Assembly: GCF_002149035.1 (NCBI RefSeq)
Contig: NZ_NGFP01000014.1
Coordinates: forward strand, 1-64,000
Direction of reading: 5' to 3'
DNA from: Streptosporangium minutum
GTDB lineage: Bacteria; Actinomycetota; Actinomycetes; Streptosporangiales; Streptosporangiaceae
Length of the DNA stretch: 64,000 nucleotides
Translations under genes and position numbers: made by a program
Notes under the pieces: generated by a model
What the model was told of the DNA's origin: nothing
Database searches by the model: none
The model's input: the letters and a program-made list of their open reading frames with translations, nothing else
In this document: positions 30,401-47,124 of the stretch, piece after piece
Numbering within the stretch: position 1 is the stretch's first letter
How the letters are laid out: each line of letters begins with the position of its first letter

Positions 30401-31014
30401 TCGATGACGAGGAGCAGGGGCTGCTGCCCGTCCGCCGTCAGTGCGGCAACCGCGTCGAGGATGTCCTTGGCGCTGGCAGTGTCCGGGTCCGCGCACGCCG
30501 CGAGGGCCGCGGCGATGGCTTTCGAGATGCGCTTGCCCCAGCGTCGCTCCGCCGCGGTGTGGAGGGCCCGGGCGAGCGTGGCGACCAGGGGTTCACGGCG
30601 TGCGGTGGCTACGCCACCGAGGAACCCGTCAGGGGCGATGGCGTCGCGTGCTGCGGCCAGGCGCTGAGCGAGGGCGGGGCTAGACTCGTCGAGGATGCGC
30701 TCGGCCTCGCTGCGCCGCTGGGCGTCCCGCCCGAGCAAGGCATCGATGAAGTTGGACAGAGTGGACTTACCGGATCCGTATGGCCCGGTGAACGACCAGG
30801 CGCGGGTCCGGCGTTGGTCGGCAAGTGCGCTCGCGATGCGTTCCAGAACGTCGACCGCCCGGGCGCCGACGTAGGGGTCGTGTAGGGCGTCCGTGACGTC
30901 CCGCTCGAGGTTCGTCGAGCGCATCTGAGAGCCGACGAGTTCGAGGCCAGCGGGGAACTGCGGGGCGGAGGTCGTGGGGCTGCCGGGGGTCCGCGTGGGG
31001 GTTGCGGTGGTCAC
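27433..31014 (-). CDS. sspC: SspC: large P-loop ATPase of DNA phosphorothioation
   Basis: The product is 1193 residues. Walker A GPYGSGKSTLSNFIDALLG lies near residue 75 and Walker B LLLVIDEFGKTLEHLAGHNEF near 205. The long helical remainder has no second catalytic domain I recognise. Size, ATPase type and position between DUF4007 and PP-loop genes fit SspC, which powers the single-strand phosphorothioation complex. It overlaps both neighbours by 4 bases (ATGA), so the operon is tightly coupled. An alternative label is simply a large defence-island ATPase, but the context makes SspC the better call. Confidence 0.82.
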   Translation of the reverse strand: MTTATPTRTPGSPTTSAPQFPAGLELVGSQMRSTNLERDVTDALHDPYVGARAVDVLERIASALADQRRTRAWSFTGPYGSGKSTLSNFIDALLGRDAQRRSEAERILDESSPALAQRLAAARDAIAPDGFLGGVATARREPLVATLARALHTAAERRWGKRISKAIAAALAACADPDTASAKDILDAVAALTADGQQPLLLVIDEFGKTLEHLAGHNEFADAQHDLFLLQELAEKSAGPNGLPVYLMTLQHLSFMDYASRSSELKTREWAKIQGRFEDITFVPHYGDSLHLLRRYLDHSAVSPAGQALITASAQASAEIWTDHGLGVLAELGPEHFADLYPLHPITALAAPILAAQIGQHDRSISGFLNSGEPNTVRHSLARHSSEKADRASTVRLPQLYDYFLNSGRTTLLASANASRWIEVDSRIRDANGLPDPDQDVLKTIGVLNLIDSDGVLSATAPMIHFALHDPTEVADPDAFTALEERLADLVRRGFVVHREFSGEYRVWQGTDVDIDGRLKEIISHFDDASVIDRLASLVPQAFVAGRHSQVTGMMRVFYTAVSGPETKTVAAPDKLKEPADGLVVFHLGTDADRPNVDSPLPVLVSTTPHPDVVLTTATYLVALKELSNDQGLDHVARREVTERIVQAEAELRELMQDAFYPPSSEASWSLWHSGIAPGEEPAASNLTARSLSGLVSLACESVYPHTPHIRNEMLGRHVLTSQAAQARGILLTAMFSASGQKNLGFTGGYKPERAMYSGVLAYLGLHRENGVAQAESHQESLLPYGFSSPGEGHEHAQPAWNALNEVLTGATERLSIEEVIRTLMSPPFGLKAGVIPVFLVPALVIHRHDVALFEEGTYLPRLTIDVVERLVKGPGRFSVKYTPAGDGQRGSIIKKLMISLGVETPRSKALRNPDLLAVASALIMRVADLNKYARTTKNISADARAVRATIAKAVDPDKLVFHALPKALGLPEVPARTRGNTEAATTYVERLTAAADELVAIDNRLRAEVVRVLAKEFRLLAELSQLRTQLAARLRGFADAVLAPELRGFVDFVLSDSLEDDDWLEPIVVRLTNSALGDWDDHEAKVFPQKARTMAAALDRVGHLHYAGREIRGREEKLDAQLLTLTDSAGVEQRTLVYVPEQVRGEADTLAVDVLKQAEKALGPDGARILLAALAQRVTDAATAASERKAEG

Positions 31015-32111
31015 GCGGTCTCCTCAAAGAGTGGCTCGGCGGTGTCGGCGATATTGGCGGTGTTGGCGGTGAGTTCCTTCTGCTCGGCCTCGGCGAGCCT
31101 GGGGAACTTGGCGGCCCATTCTTCGCGGGTAGGGAAACTGGGGCAGCGGGTGACGAAGTCGTACTGCTCGTCGAGCACTTCCCAAGCCAGTGCGAAGGGG
31201 TCGGCCGCGAACGCGAGGCTGCGCTGTCCCACGGCCTCGGTCAGGTTGAGTTGCGGGTGGTCCGCGGCGACCTTCTGCAGCGCCATGACGATCTCGTTTT
31301 CTCCGACGCGGAAGGCTCGCCCCGGGGAACCCGGCTCGTTGGCCAGGCGGGCAACGGAGATCGAGTTGGCTTGACGGGAAAACTTGGCGGCGTAGTCGAG
31401 GCAGGCATAGGCCAGGACCCGGGCGGGTAGCGTGGTGCGGTGCCCGCTAGTGAACTGCCACTCCGGCTTGCCACGCGTGCCGACAAAGGTAAGGAGGTCA
31501 AGGTCGCGGAAGGGGCAAGCGAGCAGGTCCTCATAGCTGCCGGGGGAGCCGGCCTTCTCCGGAGCGCTGCGCGCGTACATCTTGGTCAAGCAGTCGATAT
31601 CACGGACGATCGAGGCTTCGACCGGGCCCTCCTTGTAGGAGAAGTTCACATGCCGGGTGACGACCTGCGTCATGTCCGCCACCGTGAATCGGGAGAACGG
31701 CGCGAGGTGGAAGGACGTGTACCAGGTCGGCGCCCAGCATTTGGCCCCGGGACGGGAAGAGACCAGCCACCAGTGCAGCAACCACAGGCTGCCATTTTCC
31801 TCCAGATAGGGGTCGGCGCCGTCATCGTCGAGCAGCCAACGGGCCTCCCACGTGGGGAAGGAGTGCTTGGAGCGCGCCCCGCTCGTCGGGTAGTGCTCGC
31901 GGGTCAGCTTGAAGGCCCGCGACCAGTAGCGCATGGCGTTGACCATGTTCTTGCCCACACCGAACAGCACCGGGGCGTCATCCGCGAGGAACGCGCTCGG
32001 ATCATCTTTGACCTGCGTATACGCCTTGTGCAGCCAGCCGAAGCGGGGCGCGAAGGTCTCATGTCGCGCGAAGGAAAAATGGGCGGCTTCCCCAAGCCGG
32101 CTGTCTGACAT
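31011..32111 (-). CDS. sspB: SspB: DUF4007 DNA-nicking subunit
   Basis: The product is about 366 residues from MSDSRLGEAAHFSFARHETFAPRFGWLHKAY. The FARHETFxPRxGWLxKAY signature and GVGKNMVNAMRYWSRAFKL identify DUF4007, the domain of SspB. SspB nicks one DNA strand during phosphorothioate incorporation in the Vibrio system. The upstream in-frame ATG (32126) adds five residues; I prefer 32111, which opens the conserved block, but cannot exclude the other. The gene lies 58 bases after sspA and overlaps sspC. Confidence 0.88.
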   Translation of the reverse strand: MSDSRLGEAAHFSFARHETFAPRFGWLHKAYTQVKDDPSAFLADDAPVLFGVGKNMVNAMRYWSRAFKLTREHYPTSGARSKHSFPTWEARWLLDDDGADPYLEENGSLWLLHWWLVSSRPGAKCWAPTWYTSFHLAPFSRFTVADMTQVVTRHVNFSYKEGPVEASIVRDIDCLTKMYARSAPEKAGSPGSYEDLLACPFRDLDLLTFVGTRGKPEWQFTSGHRTTLPARVLAYACLDYAAKFSRQANSISVARLANEPGSPGRAFRVGENEIVMALQKVAADHPQLNLTEAVGQRSLAFAADPFALAWEVLDEQYDFVTRCPSFPTREEWAAKFPRLAEAEQKELTANTANIADTAEPLFEETA

Positions 32112-32169
32112 CCGGAACCTCTCCATGTTCGATGCGATTGCTCTAACGAGGTGTTAAACGGGGTAACAG

Positions 32170-33321
32170 TCAGCGAGGGCCATCGGCTTCGGCCAGCGAG
32201 GAACGAACCTGAGTCACGGCCCGTACGACGGCTTGCGCCGCGTGCTCAATCTCGGCGTCCGTGGTGGCGTAGCCCAGCGAGAAGCGGATCGTGCTGTCTG
32301 CAGCCTCCCGGGACAGTCCCATCGCCAGGAGCACGTGACTCGGCGTCGGGGCACCGGATGCACACGCGCTGCCCTCCGAAGCGGCGACGTCGGGCATGGC
32401 CGCCAGCACGGCATCCGCTGGCACCCCCGGGAAGGTGATACTCGTTACACCGGGGAGTCGCTGATCCCGCCGGCCATTGAGACGGCAGTCAGGCAGAGCA
32501 AGGGTCAGCAGGCGTTCGAGGCGGTCGCGCAGTGCGGCGACACGCTCGGCTTCCTCACCAAGGTTGCGTCGGGCGGCATCGGCTGCAGCACCCAGACCGA
32601 TGATCCCCGCCACGTTCAAAGTGCCTGCGCGCCAGCCACGCTCTTGCCCACCACCCACCAGGAGCGGCCGGTGCGGCAGTGGCGTCCCACGCCGCACATA
32701 CAGCGCGCCGACACCCTGCGGGCCACCGAACTTGTGGGCCGACAGCGACAGCAGGTCGACATCGAGTTCAGCAACGTCTACAGGCAGGCGACCGACGATT
32801 TGGGTGGCGTCCGTGTGAATGAGGGCGCCGGCCTCACGGACCGCCTTGGCCACGACTCGAAGGTCGGTTAGGACACCGGTCTCGTTGTTCGCTCCCATCA
32901 GGGAGACGACCCCCCCGCTTCGTGTCACGAAGACCTGCTCCAAGGCGTTGAGATCCACCAGGCCGTCGGAGCCGACCTGTAGCAGCACAAGATCCTCTGG
33001 TCGCTCGGCGGTCACCATCCGGGCTGTCTCCAGAACAGCAGGATGCTCTGCCGGGCTCGTCACTAGCGAATTTCCAGGTGTGTAGGCAGAGCGGAGGGCC
33101 AGGTTGTTCGCCTCGGTAGCCCCGGACGTGAAGATGATCTCGCCCGGTGAGCAGTTAAGCAGGCCGGCTAGCTGTCGACGAGCAAGGTCGACCCGATGCG
33201 CGGCTTGCCGTCCCGGTTGGTGCATGCTTGAGGCGTTTCCGACCGACTGCATGGCTTCAATGACGGCTGCAGCAGCCTCAGGCCGGATCGGTGCGGTGGC
33301 ATTGTAGTCAAGGTAGGACAT
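32170..33321 (-). CDS. sspA: SspA: cysteine desulfurase (IscS/DndA-like)
   Basis: The product is about 383 residues from MSYLDYNATAPIRPEAA. It is a PLP-dependent class V aminotransferase fold: cofactor-binding TSGATEANNLAL, AEHPAVLETA, Asp in IHTDATQIVG, Schiff-base Lys in SLSAHKFGGPQGVG, and the sulfur-carrying Cys in SEGSACASGAPTPSHVL. It supplies persulfide sulfur for DNA phosphorothioation. The open frame extends to 33471, but the family starts near YLDYNAT, so 33321 (or ATG 33345) is likely. It is first gene of sspABCD. Confidence 0.9.
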   Translation of the reverse strand: MSYLDYNATAPIRPEAAAAVIEAMQSVGNASSMHQPGRQAAHRVDLARRQLAGLLNCSPGEIIFTSGATEANNLALRSAYTPGNSLVTSPAEHPAVLETARMVTAERPEDLVLLQVGSDGLVDLNALEQVFVTRSGGVVSLMGANNETGVLTDLRVVAKAVREAGALIHTDATQIVGRLPVDVAELDVDLLSLSAHKFGGPQGVGALYVRRGTPLPHRPLLVGGGQERGWRAGTLNVAGIIGLGAAADAARRNLGEEAERVAALRDRLERLLTLALPDCRLNGRRDQRLPGVTSITFPGVPADAVLAAMPDVAASEGSACASGAPTPSHVLLAMGLSREAADSTIRFSLGYATTDAEIEHAAQAVVRAVTQVRSSLAEADGPR

Positions 33322-33798
33322 ACCCGCCCCATGAGACCCGTTCATCATCTGCCACCCGTCACTTGTGTCGCACATCAATGTACTGCTGGTGGAAAGCTCG
33401 TCCCGCATCCGGGTTTCCACCAGGAGCAAGCCGATCTTAGCCATGCGGCAAGATCTACTGCTTGAAATCACTCAGACGCGTGACATCACAGGCCGCCTAC
33501 TGAACGAATGTTCTACACCTGGGTGCGGTGCGCGCAGCTTGCCTGCAGCAAGATCAGCCCAAGGGGTCGGGGATTCTGGTCAGAGAGCGACAAATCCCGC
33601 CCCTGGCTGAGGTTTTCGCCTAATAGCGCCCCTGTTGTCAGCGCCCCTGATTAGGGTGGTTCGCACGCTGCGACGTTGCGGTGCCGGCACTTTGGGGCGG
33701 TGCTTGGCGTGCTCGAACTGGGGGTGGAAGTTCATGACGACTGCGCCGACCGAGGCGCGTGCAGGCTGGTGTCCGCTACGCAACGGGCAGGTGAGTCC
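33322..33798. promoter_or_regulatory. Divergent control region between sspA and the helicase operon
   Basis: There is no gene of confidence in 480 bases. This region must hold promoters for the leftward sspABCD and the rightward helicase/GHKL/PLD operon, so both arms of the system may be co-regulated here. A direct repeat AGCGCCCCTG occurs at about 33624 and 33640. GGCAGGTGAGTCC precedes the GTG at 33799. Confidence 0.5.
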
Positions 33799-35424
33799 GT
33801 GACGGCTTGGTCACCGGGGATGTCGTTCAAGGCACTCCTCGCTGGTGCGCCGGTGTCATACATCCGGGCACATCTCGGCGAGCAGCTGTGTGCCCTGCTC
33901 GATCTGATCGAGGGGGGCACAGCGCCAGACGACCGGCTGCGGGCCGTTGCCCCGATCGCTATCGACGCCGAGCGCCTGGTCGCTGACGAGGCCGAACGCT
34001 CCACTCTCATAGAGATGGTTCCGAGCCCCAAGCAGGCCGAGCTGGCGCAGCGGCTTGGCTCGGTAGGCGATGGGCAGGCACCGCTGGGCTATCTGCGGAG
34101 CCTGAAGTGGACGGCGGACGAGCGGCGCGAGCTGCTTGAGTTCTTCGGCTTCACGATCGACCGGGTGCCGTCCCTCCCGCCGGCGTTCAAACAGGAGGCG
34201 GCGCCCGAGTATGCCTTGTTCCCGCATCAGCGTCATGCGGCGGCCCAGGTCAAGGAACTGCTGTACGACGGCTCGCGGCGGACAGTGCTCCATCTGCCCA
34301 CTGGCGTTGGCAAGACCCGAACAGGCATGAGCCTGATCTGCGATCATCTACGGCAGCACGAACCGACCGTGGTGGTGTGGCTGGCGCACGGGCAGGAGCT
34401 GCTGGAGCAGGCCGCCTCAGAGTTTGAACGCGCCTGGGCCAAGGTCGGTGACCGTCCGCTCCCCCTTCTTCGTGTATGGGGCAACGCCCCTGCAGAGCTC
34501 ACGGAGGTGACCGATGGGCTGGTCGTTCTCGGCCTGGAGAAGGCCGTCTCGACTGTCAAGTCGGATTCGCAGTTCCTGGCCACCCTTGCGGCACGCAGCA
34601 CCCTGACCATCTTCGATGAGGCTCATCAGATCATCGCTCCCACTTTCCAGAGGGTGGTCGACGAACTGACGATCCGCCATGACACTAGCCTCCTGGGGTT
34701 GACGGCCACGCCGGGACGGACCTGGGCGGATATATCCAAGGACGAGGAGCTTTCCGACTACTTCTCCCGACAAAAGGTGATGTTGGAGATCGAGGGCTAC
34801 ACCAACCCGGTGACAGCCCTGATTGAGCAGGGATACCTGGCCAAGCCGCTGATGAGGACAGTGGCCTCTGAGCCGGGTATGCACCTGTCGGCTCAGGATC
34901 AACAGCTCCTTGCGCGGTCGTTCGACATCCCGGCCGTGATGATGGCCGAGCTCGCGCGGGACGAGCAGTGGAACCTCAAGATCGTCCAGACCATCATGGA
35001 GCTGCTCAAGCAGCACCGCCGGATTCTGGTGTTCGCCGCCTCTGTCGACCACTGCCGGCTGATCGCGGCCGTCCTGTCCGCGGCTGGCATCGATGCTGAG
35101 TTCGTGACCGGCGAGTCCTCCCCTCGGCACCGCAGCCAGGTGATCTCTCGGTTTAAGGGGGCCGGTCGGCGCCCCATGGTTCTGTGTAACTTCGGGGTCC
35201 TGACGACCGGCTTCGACGCCCCGGCCGCTAGCGCTGCAGTGATCGCCCGCCCGACCAAGTCCCTGGTGCTCTACAGCCAGATGGTCGGCCGCGTCATCCG
35301 CGGCCCAAAGGCTGGCGGCACCGCCACCTGCGAGATCATCACCGTCGTGAACCCGGAGCTTCCCGGGTTCGGCGATGTGGCAGAGGCATTCACCAACTGG
35401 GAAGACGTATGGGAGACATCGTGA
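33799..35424 (+). CDS. DEAD/DEAH superfamily 2 helicase (phosphorothioation-linked restriction, candidate SspFGH component)
   Basis: The product is about 541 residues from GTG 33799. SF2 motifs are I HLPTGVGKTRTGMSL, II TIFDEAHQIIA, III LGLTATPGRTW, V GVLTTGFDAPA and VI YSQMVGRVIRG. An N-terminal extension of about 130 residues precedes motif I. Helicases of this build are linked to dnd/ssp clusters as restriction components (TIGR04095-type, from memory). The frame opens at 33676, but AGGTG before GTG 33799 and loss of conservation upstream favour the shorter form. It overlaps the GHKL gene. Confidence 0.8.
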   Translation: MTAWSPGMSFKALLAGAPVSYIRAHLGEQLCALLDLIEGGTAPDDRLRAVAPIAIDAERLVADEAERSTLIEMVPSPKQAELAQRLGSVGDGQAPLGYLRSLKWTADERRELLEFFGFTIDRVPSLPPAFKQEAAPEYALFPHQRHAAAQVKELLYDGSRRTVLHLPTGVGKTRTGMSLICDHLRQHEPTVVVWLAHGQELLEQAASEFERAWAKVGDRPLPLLRVWGNAPAELTEVTDGLVVLGLEKAVSTVKSDSQFLATLAARSTLTIFDEAHQIIAPTFQRVVDELTIRHDTSLLGLTATPGRTWADISKDEELSDYFSRQKVMLEIEGYTNPVTALIEQGYLAKPLMRTVASEPGMHLSAQDQQLLARSFDIPAVMMAELARDEQWNLKIVQTIMELLKQHRRILVFAASVDHCRLIAAVLSAAGIDAEFVTGESSPRHRSQVISRFKGAGRRPMVLCNFGVLTTGFDAPAASAAVIARPTKSLVLYSQMVGRVIRGPKAGGTATCEIITVVNPELPGFGDVAEAFTNWEDVWETS

Positions 35425-37295
35425 CCAGCGACGGCAGCAACTACCGGATCGTCAGTCCCTCTCTGACCGTCAAAGCCATGCGGGACAGCGGCTACAAAAA
35501 CACTGCCTACGCCCTCGCCGAACTGATCGACAACAGCATCGACGCCAAGGCCACCCTCGTGGAGGTCTTTGCCTGCGAGAACCCCGTGAAAGTCGGCGCT
35601 CGGACCAACCACCGCGTGGAGACCATCGCCGTCCTCGACAACGGCCACGGCATGGAGCCGCCGCAGCTGCGGCGCGCCCTGAAGTACGGTGACGGGCAGG
35701 GCGTCGACCCCGCCCGCATCGGCCGTTTCGGCATGGGCCTGCCCAACTCCAGCATGTCCCAGTGCACCCGGCTCGACGTCTGGTCCTGGACCAACGGCGC
35801 GGGCAACGCCATGCACACATACCTCGATCTCAAAGAGATTGAGGCAGGGCTGATCGACGATGTCCCCGAACCCACATACGACCCGCTGCCCGACTACTGG
35901 CGGGACCTGAGCGAGGGGCTCGGTGACACCGGCACGCTCGTCGTCTGGACGAAGCTGGACAAGGTCAACTGGTACGGAGCCGCCGCCACCCTGAAAAACA
36001 CCGCCGAGCTGATCGGCCGCGTCTACCGGCACTACCTACACGACGGACGCGTCGACATCCGAATGGCGCCCGTCCGCGAGGGCAAGGTCGTCGACGGCGA
36101 ATACCACGCCGTCCCCAACGACCCCCTCTACTTGATGGCGCCCACTTCCACCCCGGCGCCGTTCTCAGACAGGCCGATGTTCATGCCTTTCTCCATGGGC
36201 AGCGAGTCCGAGCCCGGCGTGACACGCTTCCCTGTGTTCCATGAGGGCAAGAAGCACAACATCACGGTCCGGGCCTCCATCGCTCGCCCAGAGGCACGGC
36301 GCGCCAATGTCGAAGGGCAGCCGTGGCCCGACGGCATCAGCCGCACGACCGACCCTGGAACTCTTCCGTGGGGCAAGCACGCCAGGCGCAACGTCGGCAT
36401 CTCGCTCGTACGCCAGAGCAGGGAACTCGATCTCGACGCATCCTGGGCCATTGGGTACGACCCGACGGAACGGTGGTGGGGCATCGAGGTGGAGTTCCCG
36501 CCGGAACTCGACACTATCTTCGGCGTAACGAATAACAAGCAGGGCGCCACTGTCTTCTCCTCCCTCGCTCACTTCGACTGGAAGGCCCACGCCGAGGCCG
36601 GCGAGTCTTTCAAGGGGTTCAAGGAGCGCCTTGCCGAGTTCAGCGATCCGGGTCTTCCTCTCATCGACCTCGTGCTCTACCTAGAGGAGAAGCTCCTGCC
36701 TGCCATCCGGCGGCAGCTGAAGCAGCAGACGGTCGGTACACGTAAGAGCAATAAGCGGCACGACGATGACGTCGCTTCTAGGGCCACCGACGCCGTCAAG
36801 CGCCGAAGCGAGGAGGGTTACACCGGCAAGACGGACGAGCTGGAGGAAGGGGCGACCACCGAGACCAAGCGGCAAGAACAGGTCGAGGCCCTCACCCAGC
36901 GGCACCACCTTGACGAGGACACTGCGCAGTCCATGGTCGAGGAGGCCCTTGAGAAGGATCTTCGCGCGCGGTGGATCTCCGGCTTCCAGGACACCTCCGC
37001 CTTCTTCAGCATCGACCTCATGGCTGGCATGCTGCAGGTGATCTTCAACGAGAAGCACCCCCTGCACGCTCAGCTGTTGGCCGTCCTTGAAGACGTCCCG
37101 GAAGACGCGGACGTGGACGACCTGCGCGACCGGCTCAACCGTGTCGCGGAGACCTTCAAGCTGCTGCTCTTCTCCTGGGCGCGTATGGAGGACGAGACCT
37201 ACCCCGACCGCGACCGCGAACGCATCGCGGACGCCCGCCGCGAGTGGGGACGGTACGCCCGTGACTTTGTGGACGGGAAGGCCAGCGACGCGTGA
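35421..37295 (+). CDS. GHKL (Hsp90/MORC-like) ATPase, partner of the helicase and PLD genes
   Basis: The product is about 624 residues. The Bergerat fold is explicit: N-box ALAELIDNSIDAKA (catalytic Glu and Asn), G1 LDNGHGME and G2 GRFGMGLPNSSMSQ. A transducer-like middle follows, then charged helical stretches (about 430-500) and a C-terminal domain. GTG at 35421 overlaps the helicase stop (GTGA) and has GGGAG upstream; ATG 35409 is the alternative. GHKL ATPases of MORC type occur in restriction contexts as DNA clamps. Together with its helicase and PLD neighbours it looks like a three-subunit nuclease machine. Confidence 0.82.
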   Translation: MTSDGSNYRIVSPSLTVKAMRDSGYKNTAYALAELIDNSIDAKATLVEVFACENPVKVGARTNHRVETIAVLDNGHGMEPPQLRRALKYGDGQGVDPARIGRFGMGLPNSSMSQCTRLDVWSWTNGAGNAMHTYLDLKEIEAGLIDDVPEPTYDPLPDYWRDLSEGLGDTGTLVVWTKLDKVNWYGAAATLKNTAELIGRVYRHYLHDGRVDIRMAPVREGKVVDGEYHAVPNDPLYLMAPTSTPAPFSDRPMFMPFSMGSESEPGVTRFPVFHEGKKHNITVRASIARPEARRANVEGQPWPDGISRTTDPGTLPWGKHARRNVGISLVRQSRELDLDASWAIGYDPTERWWGIEVEFPPELDTIFGVTNNKQGATVFSSLAHFDWKAHAEAGESFKGFKERLAEFSDPGLPLIDLVLYLEEKLLPAIRRQLKQQTVGTRKSNKRHDDDVASRATDAVKRRSEEGYTGKTDELEEGATTETKRQEQVEALTQRHHLDEDTAQSMVEEALEKDLRARWISGFQDTSAFFSIDLMAGMLQVIFNEKHPLHAQLLAVLEDVPEDADVDDLRDRLNRVAETFKLLLFSWARMEDETYPDRDRERIADARREWGRYARDFVDGKASDA

Positions 37296-38194
37296 CCGAG
37301 CCCGCCCACATCTGGCGGCAGATCGAAGAACTGATGACGGGCGCCCACGGACGCGTAACCCTTGTGGCGCCCTTCATCAAGCGAGAAGTTCTGGCAGCTA
37401 CACTCTCCGCCGTTCCCGCCTCTGTCGAGAGCATCGAGTGCATCACGCGGTGGGTTCCCGAGGAGGTAGCGGCAGGGGTGTCGGATCCGGAGATCATTGA
37501 GCTCGCAGAGGACGACAAGCGGCTGCGCATCGCCCTGTGCCCGAGTTTGCACGCCAAGCTCTACCTCACAGGCGAGCGCTGTCTAATCGGGTCGGCCAAC
37601 CTGACAGGGAAGGCCACCGGGCGGGTCACGAATCCGAACATTGAGATCCTTGTCGAGGTGTCCGCGACACATCCGGAAGTCGGCCGGGTACTCGCCGAGA
37701 TCGAGGCATGCGCGATTGAGGCGGCGCCCCACATGGCCGCCCTGGTGAGAAGACAAGCGGAGCTGCTGAAGGAACACCGCCCGGCTGCCTCCGACCAGCT
37801 GCGAGAGGAAGCCCAGCAGGGCTGGTACCCGGTTACACGACGCCCGGAGGCCGTCTACCCGTACTACTGCGGAAGGGCTCGATTCGGGCGATCCGTAGAA
37901 GCAGCCATCCTGCGGGACCTCGCGTTCCTAGGCGTACCGGCAGGCTTGACCGAGGCGGAGTTCTCAGACTGGGTCGAAAGCCGCCTGCGGGAGATTCCTG
38001 CCCTCCGGGCGCTGGTGGAGGGTGATCGCCTGACCAACGTGGACCTGCAGCATGCGCTGCAGGAACAGGCAGGCTTAACCGATGAGCAGGCCAAAAGAGC
38101 GACCGAGACCATTGCCGCGTGGCTTCGGCACTTCGGCCGCTTCTACACCGATGTAGGAACGTGGGAGCTCAGGCACGGGCGGGAGCTGTCGTAA
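37292..38194 (+). CDS. PLD-family nuclease
   Basis: The product is 300 residues. It has one HKD-type motif, SLHAKLYLTGERCLIGSANLT (His-x-Lys, then Ser/Asn of the GSANLT element). The first half begins GRVTLVAPFIKREVL as in PLD nucleases, and a helical C-terminal part of about 150 residues follows. Single-HKD proteins act as dimers. The GTG start overlaps the GHKL stop by 4 bases. It is the likely DNA-cutting subunit of the triad. Confidence 0.82.
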   Translation: MTEPAHIWRQIEELMTGAHGRVTLVAPFIKREVLAATLSAVPASVESIECITRWVPEEVAAGVSDPEIIELAEDDKRLRIALCPSLHAKLYLTGERCLIGSANLTGKATGRVTNPNIEILVEVSATHPEVGRVLAEIEACAIEAAPHMAALVRRQAELLKEHRPAASDQLREEAQQGWYPVTRRPEAVYPYYCGRARFGRSVEAAILRDLAFLGVPAGLTEAEFSDWVESRLREIPALRALVEGDRLTNVDLQHALQEQAGLTDEQAKRATETIAAWLRHFGRFYTDVGTWELRHGRELS

Positions 38195-38385: not shown

Positions 38386-39036
38386 ATGGCTCAAGTGCGG
38401 GTCCCGTACCTGCTCGGGCACGCTGAGATCGCTTCCCTTTTCCGAGTTGAGCGCCAAACGTCACAGAAGTGGCGCACAGAAGGCACACTTCCCGAGCCCG
38501 ACCTAGTCGCTTCCGGCAACCCGTACTGGCTGCTAACGACGGTGCTGCACATCAGCGGCGTCGGAGACCGTCGAATTGATGAGGGGCAGCTCGGAGCGTA
38601 TAAGGCCAGCAGCCCTCACGGCTATGCCCTACAGGATGACGAACAACTGCCTGCCATCCTCGGCATTCAGGAGGTAGGCCGTGTCCTCGGTCGAGATGCC
38701 CAGGCGGTTTCCCGGTGGCGCAACCGGCGACGTATCGCCGAGGCGGACCTCGTCCTCTCCGGTTCTCCACTCTGGCTCTTGGAAACGATCCTTGCGGACG
38801 CGCAACGCAGGCAGCGGCCCGTCGTCACCGCCGAGATCGCCATGCTGCGTGCGGGACAGCGCGCCCCACAGAAGCCTCGCGGCCGCAGGTCCAGCAATCC
38901 CCCCGTGGTGCGCCCGCCGCAAGAGGTGCTGCCCGCAGCACGAACGTTCACGAGCGCTGACCAGGCCGCCGCCGTGGAGTTCCTCGCATCGGTACTGGCC
39001 CAGGGCTACTCCGTCGTGATCAAGCCTCAGCCCTGA
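38386..39036 (+). CDS. Protein with two AlpA/MerR-like HTH units
   Basis: The product is 216 residues. Two homologous halves are visible: LLGHAEIASLFRVERQTSQKWRTEGTLPEPDLVASGNPYWLLTTVL and ILGIQEVGRVLGRDAQAVSRWRNRRRIAEADLVLSGSPLWLLETIL. Both read as HTH plus wing. A Pro/Arg-rich linker and a short C-terminal helix (SADQAAAVEFLASVLAQGY) follow. It is probably a DNA-binding regulator or a specificity subunit of the neighbouring genes. It lies 191 bases after the PLD gene and 88 before the PP-loop gene, same strand. Confidence 0.65.
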   Translation: MAQVRVPYLLGHAEIASLFRVERQTSQKWRTEGTLPEPDLVASGNPYWLLTTVLHISGVGDRRIDEGQLGAYKASSPHGYALQDDEQLPAILGIQEVGRVLGRDAQAVSRWRNRRRIAEADLVLSGSPLWLLETILADAQRRQRPVVTAEIAMLRAGQRAPQKPRGRRSSNPPVVRPPQEVLPAARTFTSADQAAAVEFLASVLAQGYSVVIKPQP

Positions 39037-39124: not shown

Positions 39125-40054
39125 TTGATAAGCTGGCTTGCAGTCAATAATCTCTCTCACATGTCGATTCTGCAGCGCGCCCACGGAGCCCATAGCGCCG
39201 ACTCAGCCGACTCCGACCCCCAGGCCGCTTCCGGCCAGCCGAGCCACACTGCCGTGAAGGTCGTCTCCTTCGGAGGTGGCGTGCAATCAACAGCACTGCT
39301 CGTGCTGGCGGCCCGTAGAGAGATCGACTTTCGGACCTTCCTCTTCGCCAACGTGGGCGACGACAGCGAGCACCCGGCGACGCTCGCCTACGTTCGTGAG
39401 ATCGCAATCCCGTACGCGGCCCGAGCGGGGCTCGAAGTCCAGGAGCTTAGGCGGCGCCGACGTGACGGAACCACCGAGACGCTCATGCAGCGCATGAACC
39501 GGCCGGCCACGCGATCGATCCCCATCCCAGTGCGCATGGCGAACGGGGCTCCGGGCCGACGTAACTGCACAACAGACTTCAAAATCAAGGTGATCGGGCG
39601 GTGGCTCCGAGAGCATGGAGCCACCGCAGAGCATCCGGGTGCGGTGGGAATCGGTATATCGCTCGACGAGATCCACCGCGCCAACCGGCGCCGACGAGAG
39701 CCTCACGAGCTCATCGAGTACCCTCTCCTCGATCTTGGGCTGCGCAGGAGTGACTGCGAGCACATCATTATGGAGGCCGGCCTGCCGGTGCCGCCGAAAA
39801 GCTCCTGCTTCTTCTGCCCCTTTCGCACCGTCGACGCGTGGCGGCACCAGCGCAGGCACGAACCCGAGCTGTTCGCCCTGTCGGTGCAGCTTGAGGAGAC
39901 GATCAACGAACGCCGGGCTGCACTCGGGCGGGATTCCGTGTATCTCACGAGGTACGGTCGCCCGCTCGCGCAGGCAATCCCTGAAGACGGCTTGGCAGAC
40001 AGCACCGTCGACGAGGGGGATGGTTCCTGCGACTCCGGCTGGTGCATGACCTGA
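39125..40054 (+). CDS. Second PP-loop (PAPS-reductase-like) enzyme
   Basis: The product is 309 residues from TTG 39125 (GGGAG six bases upstream); ATG 39161 is possible. The PP-loop appears as VVSFGGGVQSTALLVLAA. Cys motifs are RRNCTTDFKIKVIGRWL and KSSCFFCPFRT, plus a C-terminal CDSGWCMT. The family is distinct from SspD in sequence and is widespread in actinobacteria and their phages. It may act on nucleic acid or a nucleotide with sulfur or nitrogen transfer; the substrate is unknown. A strong terminator follows, so it ends the rightward transcript that starts at the helicase or at 38386. Confidence 0.75.
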   Translation: MISWLAVNNLSHMSILQRAHGAHSADSADSDPQAASGQPSHTAVKVVSFGGGVQSTALLVLAARREIDFRTFLFANVGDDSEHPATLAYVREIAIPYAARAGLEVQELRRRRRDGTTETLMQRMNRPATRSIPIPVRMANGAPGRRNCTTDFKIKVIGRWLREHGATAEHPGAVGIGISLDEIHRANRRRREPHELIEYPLLDLGLRRSDCEHIIMEAGLPVPPKSSCFFCPFRTVDAWRHQRRHEPELFALSVQLEETINERRAALGRDSVYLTRYGRPLAQAIPEDGLADSTVDEGDGSCDSGWCMT

Positions 40055-41408: not shown

Positions 41409-43862
41409 ATGCCCACCCAGGCCAGAGAGATATTTGAGGCGCAGAGCAAGAGCCTCCGCGAGTTGCTGTCGGACAATGGCCTCGGCCTGTACCTGCCGCC
41501 GTATCAGCGGCCGTATGGGTGGGGTAAGGACAAGGTCGAGAAGCTGCTCGACGACACCCTTCACGGTCTGAAAAATCTCGGTGAGGCTCCCGACAGCTTC
41601 ACCTTCCTGGGCACCGTGATTACCATCCACGACGTCAATCACGTTACGGTGCAGCCGATTGTGAAACCGGAAGTGCCCTCCAAGGTACTCACCGTGATCG
41701 ACGGGCAACAACGTCTATCGAGCCTGCTCCTTCTACTCGTAAGCCTTCATAATCTGACCCGCCAGCACTCATGGAAGGTCTTCAAGGGCAAGACACCCGA
41801 TTCCACGGACACTGCGCGTGCATCGCTTTACTCAGAAACTGTCGGCATCCTGCAGACCCTCAGCACTGCTTTCTATGAGCGAAAGAATTTCGGCGACGCG
41901 CCGATCTACCCTCGACTGATCCGCGCCTTCGTCGACCAGTGGTCTAAGGATGCAAAGCTCAAACAGTATGAATCTCCAATTGCGAACCTGATCTACACCT
42001 ACTCAGTCGAGGCAGACGCGGAGCCCCCGACCGTGAAGCCGACGGACTTCAGGCCGCTGGCGCGTCCCGGTGCAGGTGAAGGCGAGGGCGATCTAATTAG
42101 GCGGTTCGGCGAGATCCGTGCCGCACTGACCAAGCTCGCTCAGCGCACAACGATTGAGGAGCTTGAGGATTTGCCGCCACTCTCGACCTTGGCCAATCAG
42201 ATCGAGTTTCAGCGCGCGCTGTTCAACCATGAACTCGACCCCAAGCTGTGCAGATGGCTTCGCGAGCTGGAGGACGAGCCCGAGGCTGTCTTGATGCGGC
42301 TCGTGATGTTCGCTGCGTACGTCCTAAACCGCATTGCGCTAACTGTGGTGCAAGGCAAGGACGAGGACTATGCCTTTACCATCTTCGAGTCGCTGAACAC
42401 GACCGGTGAGCCCTTGACCGCCTTCGAAACGTTCTTGCCGCGCGTTGTGATGGCGGAAAAGGTTCAGGACTACCGAGGCTCTGACGCGCACGAGCGCATG
42501 AAGGCTGTCCAGAGCTACCTCGATCGATTTGGCGTGGGGGAGAAGCTGCAGAATGCAACCCGTGAGCTGCTGGTGACGTTTGCCCTCGCGGAGACGGCCA
42601 AGAAGCTCTCGAAGCGGCTCTCCGACCAACGCGTCTACATGAAGGACACCTTCGACAACCATAAGGATTCCGTCGATGCTCGCGCTGCGTACTTACGCCA
42701 CCTGAGCGACACGGCGACCTTCGTTGGTACAACGTGGGAGCCAGCGAAGGAAGCTCCTCGTCAGCTCGTCGGACTCCCCGCCTCCGCCATGACGGACACG
42801 GTCAAGCTCTGTCTAGCCTTCCTAAACGACCTCAACCACACAATCGCCATTGCACCCTTGTTGCGGTTCTACTCCGAGGCCGTCCATGCAGAAGAGGGCG
42901 AGGAGCGGGACAAACGAATCGCGGAGTTTGAAAAAGCTATCAAGGCGACCACCGCCTTCACGGTTTTCTGGCGAGCGACTCGAAGTGGCACCGGGAACAT
43001 CGACAGCCAATATCGATCCGTCATGGCGGGTGACTCGTTAACTGGCATGGGACCTCTTGCGCGGGCGGTGTCGAACTCAGAGCAGCCTAAGCCAACCGTG
43101 GACGCCGAAGCCCTGAAGGAGGAGCTCGCGGCGCGCTTGTCCAATACGGACAAGAAGTACGGCGGTATCCCGAACCTTGCATCGTTTCTAGCGGCGGCGA
43201 AATCTTTGCCTCTCTACAAGAACAGCCGACCACTGACGCGCTTCCTTCTGCTGGCGGCCTACCACGACACCATTGAAGACCCCGATAATCCTGGCCTTAT
43301 AAAGCAGGGAAAGGCGGGCGTGGCTCCGTGCTTCACATCAGACGGCTGGTCCGATGAAACACACTTCACGATCGAGCACATCGCTCCTCAGCAAGCGACT
43401 GGCGGATGGGATCAGGACTTTTACAGCGAGAAGGGGATCGCTGACAAGATCGTTCACAAGATCGGCAACTTGGTCCTTGCGCCAGGGGCCGCCAACACGT
43501 CGCTGAGTTCGCGACCGTGGACTGAAAAGAAGGTGTTGTACGCAGCACTTGGTGCTACGACCACCGAGGAGGCCAAAACCATTCTCAACGATTCGGGCTT
43601 GGCGTTCGCGCAGTCGACCGAGGAACTGGCCCAAATGTCTCGTTACCTGCCGCACCTGCGAGCACTCGGGCAGCGCGACGCGGAGTGGGACCCGGCTTTC
43701 ATGGATCGGCGAGCTGAAGTTCTCCTTCGACTCGCCTACGCACGACTGAAGGGCTGGCTCGGCATCGCGTGGTCGGAATCGACAACTGATCCGGTGGCCC
43801 ACCATGTCGATGACGAGGTTGAACCTGACGAAGATGACGAGTCCGCGGAGAACCTCGTCTGA
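41409..43862 (+). CDS. sspE: SspE: DUF262-DUF1524 phosphorothioation-sensing nuclease
   Basis: The product is 817 residues. The N-terminal DUF262 NTPase has LYLPPYQRPYGWGKDKVEKLLDD and the hallmark VIDGQQRLSSLLLLLVS (DGQQR). Middle DUF262 features include EDYAFTIFESLNTTGEPLTAFE. The C-terminal DUF1524 HNH-type nuclease shows FTIEHIAPQ and HKIGNLVLAPGAANTSLSSRPWTEKK. In the described Ssp system SspE senses phosphorothioates, hydrolyses nucleotide and nicks phage DNA. It lies 7.9 kb from sspA on the opposite strand and is complete. The C-terminus is strongly acidic (DDEVEPDEDDESAENLV). Confidence 0.88.
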   Translation: MPTQAREIFEAQSKSLRELLSDNGLGLYLPPYQRPYGWGKDKVEKLLDDTLHGLKNLGEAPDSFTFLGTVITIHDVNHVTVQPIVKPEVPSKVLTVIDGQQRLSSLLLLLVSLHNLTRQHSWKVFKGKTPDSTDTARASLYSETVGILQTLSTAFYERKNFGDAPIYPRLIRAFVDQWSKDAKLKQYESPIANLIYTYSVEADAEPPTVKPTDFRPLARPGAGEGEGDLIRRFGEIRAALTKLAQRTTIEELEDLPPLSTLANQIEFQRALFNHELDPKLCRWLRELEDEPEAVLMRLVMFAAYVLNRIALTVVQGKDEDYAFTIFESLNTTGEPLTAFETFLPRVVMAEKVQDYRGSDAHERMKAVQSYLDRFGVGEKLQNATRELLVTFALAETAKKLSKRLSDQRVYMKDTFDNHKDSVDARAAYLRHLSDTATFVGTTWEPAKEAPRQLVGLPASAMTDTVKLCLAFLNDLNHTIAIAPLLRFYSEAVHAEEGEERDKRIAEFEKAIKATTAFTVFWRATRSGTGNIDSQYRSVMAGDSLTGMGPLARAVSNSEQPKPTVDAEALKEELAARLSNTDKKYGGIPNLASFLAAAKSLPLYKNSRPLTRFLLLAAYHDTIEDPDNPGLIKQGKAGVAPCFTSDGWSDETHFTIEHIAPQQATGGWDQDFYSEKGIADKIVHKIGNLVLAPGAANTSLSSRPWTEKKVLYAALGATTTEEAKTILNDSGLAFAQSTEELAQMSRYLPHLRALGQRDAEWDPAFMDRRAEVLLRLAYARLKGWLGIAWSESTTDPVAHHVDDEVEPDEDDESAENLV

Positions 43863-43957: not shown

Positions 43958-44608
43958 ATGGATCAGATGATCAGGGTTCTCGCCCGGGGCGGAGACTGCC
44001 TGGCCGACATCGCGCTCCTGCGGGCCCGGCCCGAGCGGTTCAGCCCTGTGGCCCCAGACCCGACCGTCTCCCGCCTGATCGCCCGACTGGCCGCCGACGC
44101 GGCGCGAGCGTTGAAGGCAATCCGCGCCGCCCGCGCCAGCGCACGAGCACGCGCCTGGACGCTGGCCGATCACAACGCGCCCGGCGCCAACGGCGAACTG
44201 ATCCCCCTCGACCTCGACGCCACCATCGTCGTCGTCGCCCACTCCGATAAGGACCAGGCCACACCGACCTGGAAGAAGACCTTCGGCTTCCACCCGATGA
44301 CGGTCTTCGCCCACCACGAAGCCGCCGGTTCCGGCGAATCTCTGGCCATTACGCTCAGGCCGGGCGACGCCGGCTCCAACACCGCCGCCGACCACATCGA
44401 CACCACCCGGCTCGCCCTGGCCCAACTGCCCAAACAGCGTCGCTGCCAGGTCCTCATCCGTACCGACTCCGGCGGCGACACCCACGATTTCCTGTCCTGG
44501 CTGACCTGGCCGGGCAGGTGGCTGAACTACTCCATCGAGTTTACCCTCACTGACGACATCCAGACTGCGATCTTGCGGTTACCGAAGACCGCGGCTCCGG
44601 CGCGCTGA
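43958..44608 (+). pseudogene. IS1380-family transposase, internal fragment
   Basis: The translation matches the middle of IS1380 transposases as I know them: DQMIRVLARGGDCLADIALLRARPERF, LDLDATIVVVAHSDKDQATPTWKKTFGFHPM, GSNTAADHIDTTRLALAQLP, VLIRTDSGGDTHDFLSWL. The N-terminal and C-terminal parts are missing; after LRLPKTAAP the sequence changes to a different transposase. It is a relic. Confidence 0.8.
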
Positions 44609-44930
44609 CCGGCAACACCTACGACCTGAGCGCCGCCCGCATTTGGGGCATCCTGCCCGAACTGAACAAGGCCGGGATCATCTTCTTGGCCGCCAAGGCG
44701 TATAACGGAGTCGAGGGCCCGGCCGTTACCCCGTACAAGGGCAAGAAGCAGTCCGAGTCCCAGAAACAGGCCAATTGCTCCCACGACAGGCCCCATGGAC
44801 ACGGCGAACGCGCGCCCAACTGAAGAGCTGGAAGATCGTTCGGGAGCTGCGCTGTAGCCCCTCCACGGCTGGCCACCCTGTGCAAGGCCATCGCCGTCCT
44901 TCAGCACCACAGCGTCGCTGAGGTCCCCCG
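44606..44930 (+). pseudogene. IS5-type (DDE_Tnp_4) transposase, 3' relic
   Basis: In the frame beginning LTGNTYDLSAARIWGILPELNKAGIIFLAAKAYNG the sequence is the C-terminal part of a DDE_4 transposase, ending near ERANAQLKSWKIVRELRCSP after a frameshift. It is fused directly to the IS1380 fragment, so at least two elements have collapsed here. Confidence 0.65.
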
Positions 44931-44949
44931 AAGATGACAAGGGTTCAGT

Positions 44950-45444
44950 CTAATGATCTGCTACTTGTCGAAGATGGTTCTCAAATGATTCGATAATCAG
45001 TGCGGCAGAATGTTGGACTACAGACAGTTGTACCGTTGGGTTAGATCTGACCTTACTTATAACCACCATAGGCGGCTTTTGGCGCGCAAGTATATTTCTG
45101 AGTGCTCGCTGAACAAGGTACTCAACTGCTTCTCTATGACTAGTCTCAACAGATAAGAACTCAGGCAAATTTCCCATATCGGCCCAGAACACAACTAGAT
45201 CGTCCAGCACACTCCAAGCAAACTCATCATACTCCTGGAGTCTTCGCCTAAAAGAGGACCTCTCAAGAGCTCGCCCTAAATGGTCACCCCATCGGCCTAG
45301 AATTCCGTTGCGTCCGATGGTCATTCCTATGTAAGCGGCTTTTACTTTCTTTGAGTAGCCGCAGTAAATGTAAGCACGGGCCCGACATAAACCAGGGTCG
45401 CCAACGGCAGCGGCACCCCAATCCCCTGCATCCTCAATTTCCAT
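44950..45444 (-). CDS. GIY-YIG-like endonuclease, partner of a GHKL ATPase
   Basis: The product is 164 residues. The N-terminal half has the GIY-YIG pattern: ARAYIYCGYSKKVKAAYIGMT (first strand YIY, second YIG), then an Arg in GRNGILGRWGDHLGRAL that fits the catalytic Arg, and a possible late Glu. The rest is helical. It starts 9 bases after the stop of the upstream GHKL gene and is surely co-transcribed. Both genes are AT-richer than their surroundings. The predicted role is DNA cleavage controlled by the GHKL clamp. The GIY strand is degenerate, hence moderate confidence. Confidence 0.6.
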   Translation of the reverse strand: MEIEDAGDWGAAAVGDPGLCRARAYIYCGYSKKVKAAYIGMTIGRNGILGRWGDHLGRALERSSFRRRLQEYDEFAWSVLDDLVVFWADMGNLPEFLSVETSHREAVEYLVQRALRNILARQKPPMVVISKVRSNPTVQLSVVQHSAALIIESFENHLRQVADH

Positions 45445-45453
45445 AGTGGTGGC

Positions 45454-47124
45454 TTAAACTAGCCGCTCCTCCAACGCGTCCGCTGTCGCCTTATAGATGG
45501 CAGCCGAGGTCATTTCGCGGTAGCGAGTAAAGACCTCCTCCAAAATTTCGTCTGTAACATCTTGGATGTTCCTGACGGAGCGACTCTCTCCCACAGCCAG
45601 ACTGAGGAAGAGTGCATGAAGAAGAAGAGTAACGTCCGCGTCGTTTCCGAATTTCTCCTCAAACATTCGCATAAATCGATGGGATCGATTTATGCGAACC
45701 ACGGTTCCAAGAGTGGCGTCATGAGCACGTTGCCAGAGTGCATTGTCGTCGAGATGATCGACGAGTGTGACCCTTCTCCCATCTCTTCGCGCCTGCTCCC
45801 GCTCTTCTTCCTGCAAGGGATGCCGTGTTGCCTCTTTTTTCTCGCGTACTTTACGTTCAGTTTCTGCCTGAGCGTCATCAGGATCAGAGGGTAGAAGATC
45901 CGGAAAATCAACCTCGCTGAGGGCCTCAGCGGCCTTGCTTACCGGATCGGTGTGTATCTTTGCTCGAAGCAGTTTTGCAGCGTTTCGCCAGGCGGCTCTG
46001 CTCATACGTCGAGCTTCGTACACAGATTCGGATAGGACACTCTCCGCCTCTTCGCTCAGCAGTATCTCTGATTTTTTAACATCGATATTGAAGGCGTCGT
46101 CCGCCGTATCGCTGATAAGAATTCGACCGCGGAATGCGAAATAGTCTTGATCAGTTGGAATGATGCCGCCGAATCGCTCACCCCATCGAATCAATCGCTT
46201 ATTCCGATACACGAAGAAACCGTAGTGTTCCCCGCCAATCATATACTTCTTGCGCATCTCTGCCGGATTTTCGAATGCTGGGGGGTGGACCAGCTGGGTC
46301 GCCTCAAATTGTGCTTCAACACCATTCTCAGCATCTAGAACGATAGATGTGGGACGCTCCAGCCAACGAACATCCCGACCATCCCATTTTGTCTCGTCCA
46401 TGTTGCCGCTAATCTCAGCCTCACTCACGAAGAGTGGATCAAACGACGACATGCCCTCACCATCCAGTTGAATGCATAGATCGCGTTCTATCAGGTAGTA
46501 GTAATACGCGACTCCAATACGTATACTTAAATCACTTCTGGTCTTCTTGATGCTTGGATGATTCTGCTTGTGCATTTTCTCGACGATAATAACTGTGCCA
46601 TGCTCAGTATCCGAGAGATGCCTGCTAATCAGCTCCAGATCGTTCTCGTCGACCTGAAGCCATTGGCATTCAAAGCTCCTCTTTGCTTCCACATGTTCAA
46701 GATCGAGAGCAGCCTTGATCCATTCACTTCCCCAAGTTTTAGTGATTACCTCAAGTCGATCTCCTTGTGACAACCCGGCGCTCTTTAGGCCTAAACCGAA
46801 CTTCCCAAGGCTCCCTGCCTCGTACTCTCGCACCACGCCAAGACCTAGAGCGTCTATTAATTGACCGGAAGACATTCCTCGCCCGTTGTCAGCGATGATG
46901 TATCTGGCGGCACTATTGCGTCGGCTTTCCGCGACATCGGGCTCGCGTTGCAGTTCGATGGAGATCAGACCAGCATCAGCTGCTACCGCATTATCTATGA
47001 TGTCGCATATCGCGCTGGCTGGCGTATATCCGATACGCGCTATAGCGCGAAGGACCCGTCCTGGATTTATTTCCAGGGCAGCGAATTCTTCGTTAATAAT
47101 ACCTGAGGCATCTGATGTCGTCAT
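45454..47124 (-). CDS. GHKL (MORC-like) ATPase, second in the island
   Basis: The product is 556 residues. Bergerat motifs are N-box SAICDIIDNAVAADA, G1 IADNGRGMSSG and G2 GKFGLGLKSAGLSQGD. The usual N-box Glu is Asp here (DIIDN), which may slow hydrolysis. A beta-rich transducer region (FFVYRNKRLIRWGERFGGI, then FRGRILISDTADDAFNIDVKKSEI) resembles MORC/MutL-type proteins, followed by a charged helical stretch and a C-terminal domain. It leads the operon with the GIY-YIG-like gene and lies just inside the right attachment site. I do not know a named defence system with this pair. Confidence 0.78.
   Translation of the reverse strand: MTTSDASGIINEEFAALEINPGRVLRAIARIGYTPASAICDIIDNAVAADAGLISIELQREPDVAESRRNSAARYIIADNGRGMSSGQLIDALGLGVVREYEAGSLGKFGLGLKSAGLSQGDRLEVITKTWGSEWIKAALDLEHVEAKRSFECQWLQVDENDLELISRHLSDTEHGTVIIVEKMHKQNHPSIKKTRSDLSIRIGVAYYYYLIERDLCIQLDGEGMSSFDPLFVSEAEISGNMDETKWDGRDVRWLERPTSIVLDAENGVEAQFEATQLVHPPAFENPAEMRKKYMIGGEHYGFFVYRNKRLIRWGERFGGIIPTDQDYFAFRGRILISDTADDAFNIDVKKSEILLSEEAESVLSESVYEARRMSRAAWRNAAKLLRAKIHTDPVSKAAEALSEVDFPDLLPSDPDDAQAETERKVREKKEATRHPLQEEEREQARRDGRRVTLVDHLDDNALWQRAHDATLGTVVRINRSHRFMRMFEEKFGNDADVTLLLHALFLSLAVGESRSVRNIQDVTDEILEEVFTRYREMTSAAIYKATADALEERLV
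45666..45698. repeat. Perfect 15-bp inverted repeat inside the GHKL gene
   Basis: TTCGCATAAATCGAT, then GGG, then ATCGATTTATGCGAA. It codes RINRSHRFMR of the GHKL protein (minus strand). A 15-bp perfect stem in coding sequence is uncommon and would form a strong mRNA hairpin or a symmetric protein-binding site. Confidence 0.85.

Follow-up and report, generated by a model that had tools for sequence, protein, structure and literature searches.

The stretch of DNA analysed here, the first 64,000 nucleotides of contig NZ_NGFP01000014.1 of the actinobacterium Streptosporangium minutum (hereafter the window), carries on its reverse strand two adjoining genes that encode a MORC-like GHKL ATPase of 556 amino acids (aa) and a GIY-YIG-type protein of 164 aa, at 1-18 kb from a complete SspABCD phosphorothioation (PT) cluster and the gene for SspE (Table 1). 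Both open reading frames (ORFs) of the pair are intact and without internal stops, and 9 bases separate the stop codon of the GHKL gene from the ATG of the smaller one. An initial annotation had read the locus in the same manner, as an ATPase followed 9 bases later by a 164-aa protein with YIY, YIG and Arg, and coordinates and motifs agree with it. The pair was further said to be AT-richer than its surroundings and to lie at the edge of a defence island; its GC content is indeed 50.4%, as compared to 65.0% for the whole window, the lowest of any 2175-bp stretch in a scan in 100-bp steps, and the island comprises SspABCD, an operon for a helicase, a second GHKL ATPase and a PLD-like nuclease, and SspE.

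With regard to function, the pair had been envisaged as a compact two-gene machine. The coupling of GHKL and GIY-YIG-type genes in a defence context stands, whereas the stand-alone role overlooked a linkage to PT modification genes, namely SspABCD here and DndBCDE in a separate clade. Because of this link to phosphorothioation genes, we consider the window pair a likely restriction arm of PT defence instead of a stand-alone machine, and probably an unrecognised cutting arm of a sulfur-marking anti-virus defence.

Table 1. The gene pair and the neighbouring features of the window, with the evidence for each assignment
Feature	Position	Strand	Evidence or remark
MORC-like GHKL ATPase, 556 aa	45454-47124	-	Pfam HATPase_c_3, motif columns, Foldseek, orthologues
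GIY-YIG-type protein, 164 aa	44950-45444	-	Motif pattern, orthologues over Pfam cut-off, PADLOC UzuA
SspA-like cysteine desulfurase	32170-33471	-	PADLOC SspA 1.5e-130
SspB (DUF4007)	31011-32126	-	PADLOC SspB 2e-123; Pfam DUF4007 8e-88
SspC ATPase	27433-31014	-	PADLOC SspC 1380 bits
SspD (PAPS-reductase family)	26603-27436	-	PADLOC SspD 2.4e-121
SF2 helicase	33676-35424	+	Divergent from SspABCD
Second GHKL ATPase	35409-37295	+	Divergent from SspABCD
PLD-like nuclease	37292-38194	+	Divergent from SspABCD
SspE, known PT-sensing nickase	41409-43862	+	PADLOC SspE 1076 bits
IS1380-family transposase fragment, between SspE and the pair	43958-44608	+	NCBIfam IS1380 1.7e-35, 122.5 bits vs cut-off 180

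Linkage of the pair to SspABCD in two phyla

The genome collection was scanned with a profile of eight GHKLs. Among the best 80 loci, many of which have short flanks, the closest relatives were six at 38-41% identity to the window GHKL, followed by matches at 31% or less. Four of the six are intact, near-identical and from Flavobacteriaceae (Nonlabens, Aquimarina, Marinirhabdus and Winogradskyella; L088/L089/L092/L096). Their genes are arranged as SspB, SspC, SspD, GHKL, GIY-YIG and a convergent SspA, then a TraG-like conjugation gene, with scores of 230 bits for SspB (DUF4007), 1372 bits for SspC, 292 bits for SspD and 433 bits for SspA; an Xre-type helix-turn-helix (HTH) ORF precedes the cluster in three of the four loci, and the GHKL and GIY-YIG genes overlap by 20-41 bp. 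The pair is thereby linked to a complete SspABCD cluster in two phyla, and the TraG-like gene behind the Flavobacteriia cluster indicates that it rides on a conjugative element. Between the window and the Flavobacteriia, the GHKL and GIY-YIG proteins are each about 38-40% identical; this similar identity of both proteins across phyla therefore points to inheritance of the pair as a pair.

SspB occurs once in each of the five genomes with an intact GHKL and GIY-YIG pair, including the source genome of the window, and in neither of the two with a truncated GHKL. Among the best 80 genome loci, SspB or SspC was found at four, exactly the four pair loci, and at none of the 58 viral loci (the underlying profile scan took in 174 loci, including the window and duplicates of the same places, L001-L003 and L168-L171). 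The two genes of the pair adjoin in 5/5 genomes with an intact member of this clade, so the condition under which the initial annotation would have failed, rare adjacency in other genomes, did not hold, although the clade is rare and its other four copies are near-identical. The four Flavobacteriia genomes yielded no full-length homologue of SspE; only a weak N-terminal match (E=7e-4) turned up, elsewhere in one of them. The remaining two close loci hold truncated GHKLs: in a Melainabacteria metagenome-assembled genome (MAG; L090) the gene lacks its C-terminal end and adjoins transposition-type genes (L090:5929-11462), and a Coriobacteriaceae MAG (L091) contains a GHKL fragment. Neither a GIY-YIG gene nor SspB was found in these two genomes. 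The N-terminal neighbours in L090 have a DUF262-type and HipA-type look, as read from their translations.

Further members of the clade were looked for in several collections, with none other at E<=1e-25 among 341 family genomes and none but that of the window among 396 phylum genomes (judged by matches that covered part of the length at 37% identity or less). Profile scans of the classes to which the Flavobacteriia, Melainabacteria and Coriobacteriia matches belong (395, 194 and 197 genomes) returned the seed genome only, and neither scans of viral contigs for close relatives nor a plasmid search with the L088 GHKL at 1e-20 added anything. Approached from SspB, a DUF4007 match was present in 7/345 genomes including that of the window. 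Of the six other Actinomycetota loci, four resemble SspBC clusters, L182 being the only one of these with a helicase-GHKL-PLD operon, and L186 and L187 have weak SspB-like matches only; none of the six carries the GIY-YIG pair, L183 being a 7.9-kb contig that is too short to exclude anything. Two apparent plasmid pairings were discarded: on a Rhizobium plasmid (L024), the 'ATP-binding protein' partner of a GIY-YIG gene matches AAA/OLD-type models (NsnB, AriA), and on a Streptomyces plasmid (L009) no GIY-YIG gene was found among the ORFs behind the GHKL gene.

The ATPase protein

The earlier assignment of the larger protein as a MORC-like GHKL ATPase is borne out by its match to Pfam HATPase_c_3 (E=1e-24, 87.6 bits, cut-off 25) and by its nucleotide-binding motifs, which comprise D41/N45 (N-box), D79-G81-G83 (DxGxG), G107-G112 (G-rich lid) and T177 (motif IV); a Lys351 of the S5 type is also present, and the C-terminal region contains a conserved LW...vRIN..HrF pattern. 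The protein was compared with prokaryotic relatives in an alignment and tree of 59 hand-picked rows, consisting of plasmid and profile-relevant GHKLs, every fourth genome locus from L100 and eight viral loci, with ORFs below 1100 bp dropped; the tree leaves out L091 and L182 and includes L035 and L049 as long branches. Residues D44, N45, D79, G83, G110, G112, T177 and Lys351 are kept in 59/59 rows. The variant N-box described by the initial annotation is real, with Asp41 in ICDIIDN, but it is not a peculiarity: 45 of the 59 rows carry Asp four positions ahead of the invariant Asn, and the other 14 carry Glu. Because 45/59 relatives have Asp and the Asp/Glu division tracks the deepest fork of the tree (drawn midpoint-rooted, for display only), this Asp is the character of a branch and no oddity of the window protein. 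A Foldseek search with the AlphaFold model of the window GHKL, in which the predicted local distance difference test (pLDDT) is low over most of the chain beyond about residue 226, had MORC2 with DNA among its best matches (E=3.6e-10). The AlphaFold inputs were 4- and 5-row alignments, and the models are poor for both the small protein (pLDDT 46.5) and the GHKL protein (49.8).

The small GIY-YIG-type protein

The catalytic residues of GIY-YIG nucleases are, in order, Tyr, Tyr, Arg, (His) and Glu. The small protein of the window has YIY (25-27), YIG (38-40), Arg51, His55 and Glu108; Y25/Y27, Y38, R51, H55 and E108 are unchanged across four aligned orthologues, and Y27, Y38, G40, R51 and H55 over seven sequences from three families. 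Four orthologues lie narrowly over the Pfam GIY-YIG cut-off of 22.6 bits (22.7, 22.7, 22.9 and 23.8). Furthermore, the protein resembles a Pfam-positive GIY-YIG protein of a Mesorhizobium plasmid (L017, itself at 25.2 bits) in a single comparison (28% over 133 columns, E=1e-8), the likeness extending beyond the core to the region that precedes and surrounds the catalytic Glu, and a profile-profile comparison with a Pfam-positive GIY-YIG protein gave E=2.4e-4 with a probability of just 44%. Judged by sequence, we take it as a putative GIY-YIG nuclease. A PDB sequence search returned nothing relevant, and tblastn against plasmids and phages gave just two weak GIY-YIG-annotated matches (E=0.2 and 7). 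Identity with UzuA of the Uzume system was rejected: the PADLOC match (6e-4) is restricted to residues 26-80, which correspond only to positions 186-245 of the 278 of UzuA, at 17.4 bits.

Directly downstream, a 137-aa ORF without Pfam match (44527-44940, reverse strand) starts 9 bp past the stop of the GIY-YIG gene and encodes a hydrophobic segment. With its 3' part it overlaps the IS1380 fragment in antisense; it may represent a gene truncated by the insertion or have arisen by chance.

Further GHKL lineages beside phosphorothioation genes

A second pairing of this kind lies beside Dnd genes. On a contig of the viral collection (L174), the order is DndA, DndB, DndC, DndD, DndE, a small ORF without Pfam match, GIY-YIG and GHKL; the GIY-YIG protein has 135 aa (22.9 bits), and its gene overlaps that of the 579-aa GHKL by 4 bp. 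A pair on a Nocardiopsis plasmid (L175) is related to it, with 50% identity for the GHKL and 54% for the small protein. The window/Flavobacteriia and L174/L175 clades, each with 100/100 support, are separated by the deepest fork of the 59-row tree; therefore, the two pairings, whose gene order is reversed, probably arose independently. Behind the L174 pair (L174:11958-15618) are a 723-aa DndB-like protein, under the Pfam cut-off, and an Mrr-type nuclease. Photobacterium and Vibrio plasmids (L177 and L178) carry GHKLs of the clade adjoining L174/L175, with a PAPS-reductase-family gene at most about 1 kb behind them and no other PT genes annotated in the stretch.

A third lineage is linked to helicases. 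The plasmid search with the L174-type GHKL gave 30 records, at least six of which also carry SspB in a comparison with 40 listed of 95 SspB plasmid records; the hypergeometric P of this overlap, 2.5e-12, was calculated post hoc, ignores relatedness and size of the records, and is to be taken as an order of magnitude only. On these six, all of which were inspected, SspABCD lies within 6-17 kb or less of a GHKL gene adjoining an SF2 helicase. The third gene is PLD-like in four of them (L181, L188, L189 and L192), and in L190 and L191 it is replaced by one for a 359-aa protein without Pfam match. In another actinobacterium (L182), SspABCD, the helicase, the GHKL and the PLD-like protein form a single run. 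The helicase-GHKL clade recurs beside SspABCD in Alphaproteobacteria and in the window, whose operon at 33676-38194 is of the same kind, making the helicase-GHKL-PLD-like operon a candidate for a further PT restriction module. PADLOC has no name for this operon apart from generic helicase, MzaB and DrmC-type matches. On the Agrobacterium plasmid of L191 (L191:11651-18699), a large FtsK/SpoIIIE-domain gene and its neighbours lie next to SspABCD, and beyond them the GHKL-helicase operon; the former set is possibly SspFGH-like, which would place two candidate effectors beside one SspABCD.

Other features of the window

SspE is a second candidate effector of the SspABCD cluster in the window. Between it and the helicase-GHKL-PLD operon lies a gene for a second PAPS-reductase-family protein (39125-40054, forward strand; PADLOC SspD 3e-13), preceded by one for a small HTH protein (38386-39036, forward strand). 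On the flank away from the pair, the Ssp cluster adjoins an IS4/IS5-type transposase gene (24390-25109, reverse strand), and an NB-ARC/TPR (STAND-type) protein is encoded in a second low-GC patch of 52-54% GC (21404-23803, forward strand).

Proposed role of the pair and rival explanations

We think it rather probable that the pair constitutes the restriction module of a PT-based defence, a partner of SspABCD like SspE or SspFGH, because in the Flavobacteriia it directly follows SspD in a cluster without SspE. Since three GHKL lineages with dedicated nucleases adjoin PT genes, a GHKL ATPase with a nuclease would be a restriction solution of PT systems. Most sspBCD clusters, 2,211 of 2,678, were reported without sspE and sspFGH, and undiscovered partners were suggested by the authors (PMC8092258). 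For the pair itself, we infer nuclease activity, complex formation, PT sensing, PT-dependent restriction, gating of the nuclease and anti-phage activity.

In the proposed mechanism, the MORC/MutL-like ATPase would dimerise upon ATP and close around DNA, and PT marks on self DNA would release it or hold it idle; on PT-free DNA, the closed dimer would load or activate the GIY-YIG enzyme, so that the invader would be cut or nicked. The ATPase would thus be the gate and the GIY-YIG protein the cutter, with a logic like that of MutL licensing MutH and a sulfur mark instead of methylation. As a precedent, the GHKL ATPase MutL acts together with a stand-alone nuclease, MutH (PMC2292703), and gating of nucleases by GHKL domains is supported as a principle by VcSduA, an anti-phage protein with a GHKL-gated nuclease in a single polypeptide (PMC12137116). 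Possible models of PT-dependent behaviour are SspFGH, which attacks any PT-free DNA and is toxic without SspBCD (PMC8092258), and DndI, whose ATPase is stimulated by PT and then leaves self DNA (PMC11662687).

Several observations weigh against a restriction role tied to SspABCD. The four Flavobacteriia loci are near-identical and represent one mobile element, so the Ssp link of the clade amounts to two independent lineages, and the clade is rare beyond the six close relatives in the best 80 genome loci. No Ssp genes lie near the truncated GHKL of L090, and the 19 kb read around the L175 pair contain no PT genes. The window GHKL matched 18 plasmid records, all at 30% identity or less, none of them among 40 listed of the 95 SspB records. 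In the window, the pair is opposite in strand to SspE, 1.1 kb off beyond the insertion sequence (IS) fragment and 11.5 kb from SspA; this separate position and the differing GC content may reflect a separate arrival, and the presence of SspE and the helicase operon makes redundancy or independent arrival possible. With regard to the small protein, the window sequence itself stays under the Pfam GIY-YIG cut-off (13.1 bits, E=0.12, against 22.6), and its poor model (pLDDT 46.5) had no Foldseek match at E<=0.001, the best to I-TevI being at E=1.4.

The isolated position of the L175 pair and of the L090 GHKL, together with the IS fragment, strand and GC content that set the window pair apart, would also suit a stand-alone two-gene anti-phage system, with a GHKL sensor and a GIY-YIG effector that merely share islands or mobile elements with PT clusters. 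We consider this unlikely, although not negligibly so: the Flavobacteriia pair stands in ssp operon order, right behind SspD, SspBCD accompanies 4/4 complete clade members and 0/76 of the other loci among the best 80, and a second GHKL clade lies beside Dnd and a third beside Ssp. A restriction module would in turn differ from a backup suicide effector, in which the GHKL would restrain the nuclease and free it for indiscriminate DNA cutting once the PT system is inhibited. Such a backup role was proposed for URI (GIY-YIG) genes that border Dnd systems, sometimes on the opposite strand (PMC10853773), and the window pair does lie at an island border; however, in the Flavobacteriia and L174 the pair is co-directional with the modification genes and directly behind them, the arrangement that the same source gives for true restriction enzymes, and from SspB up to the conjugation genes, the Flavobacteriia loci reveal no further restriction nuclease. 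We find this option improbable.

The least probable explanation, to which we give very little credence, is a remnant of a methylation-type restriction-modification (R-M) system, in which a type II endonuclease of the GIY-YIG family and an accessory MORC would have outlasted their methyltransferase. It would fit the nearest Pfam-positive GIY-YIG match and its relatives, which are encoded near or next to cytosine methyltransferases (L017, L025, L027, L028 and L029), and other MORC relatives found in dcm/Vsr/helicase operons. Yet neither in the window nor at the four Flavobacteriia loci is there a methyltransferase gene next to the pair (by inspection of ORF translations, without a methyltransferase model for each ORF), the pair has been kept as a unit across phyla, and the PT cluster stands where the modification arm would be.

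Should the pair be a PT restriction module as preferred here, and restrict PT-free DNA, a MutL/MORC-type ATPase would join the readers of DNA sulfur. Prokaryotic MORCs would be tied to a backbone mark and not to base methylation, and the comparison with MutL-MutH would become directly testable. Located behind sspBCD, the GHKL and GIY-YIG module is, at about 2.2 kb, a concrete candidate restriction partner that lends itself to cloning, and the helicase-GHKL-PLD operon would offer another. As a more speculative generalisation, which we put forward with reserve, GHKL clamps might form a general, unrecognised class of PT readers, with at least three lineages coupled separately to Ssp or Dnd, each with its own nucleases (GIY-YIG twice, helicase and PLD-like once), and self would be told by PT as MutL-MutH tells strands by methylation. 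If so, GHKL clamps as PT readers would explain part of the supposedly orphan sspBCD clusters.

Comparison with known systems

A GHKL-GIY-YIG PT module, or any link between a GHKL and PT modification, was not found in our searches of the open-licence PMC literature, in which the restriction branches of PT systems are given as dndFGH/sspFGH, sspE and pbeABCD (PMC12707154). In PADLOC-DB, MzaB was the sole match of the GHKL and UzuA that of the small protein, and no homology to a known PT restriction protein emerged there, with DndI and SspFGH sequences outside this direct comparison. MzaB of the MZA system is the nearest named defence ATPase (PADLOC 1.2e-17, 61.6 bits); membership in MZA was rejected, the MzaB score being 84.4 bits against an NCBIfam cut-off of 850.

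The prokaryotic MORC and paraMORC R-M operons likewise combine a GHKL and S5 ATPase with nucleases and modification enzymes, but their partners are DNA methylases, SFII helicases and HNH, HKD, VSR and RE-fold nucleases, and 'GIY-YIG' is never mentioned in the available text (PMC2292703). Conversely, the URI nucleases near Dnd share with the pair a GIY-YIG nuclease tied to PT modification, whereas they are stand-alone border genes, and the available text of PMC10853773 never mentions 'GHKL', 'MORC' or 'MutL'. The IscS-DndBCDE-DndI system offers a model for the mechanism, in that a PT-stimulated ATPase releases self DNA; DndI is, however, a single protein, and the abstract contains no GHKL or GIY-YIG (PMC11662687).

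Among Ssp systems, SspFGH is comparable as a multi-gene restriction partner of SspBCD that includes an ATPase and may coexist with SspE (PMC8092258). It differs in the Walker A motif of SspF and the FtsK/SpoIIIE-like SspH, and neither 'GHKL' nor 'HATPase' is mentioned in the available text of that article. SspABCD-SspE has the same modification genes, the Flavobacteriia pair occupies the expected effector place behind SspBCD, and both would combine a nucleotide-driven enzyme with a DNA-cutting function; SspE, which is also present in the window, is one GmrSD-like protein, whereas here the two roles would fall to a GHKL ATPase and a separate GIY-YIG protein.

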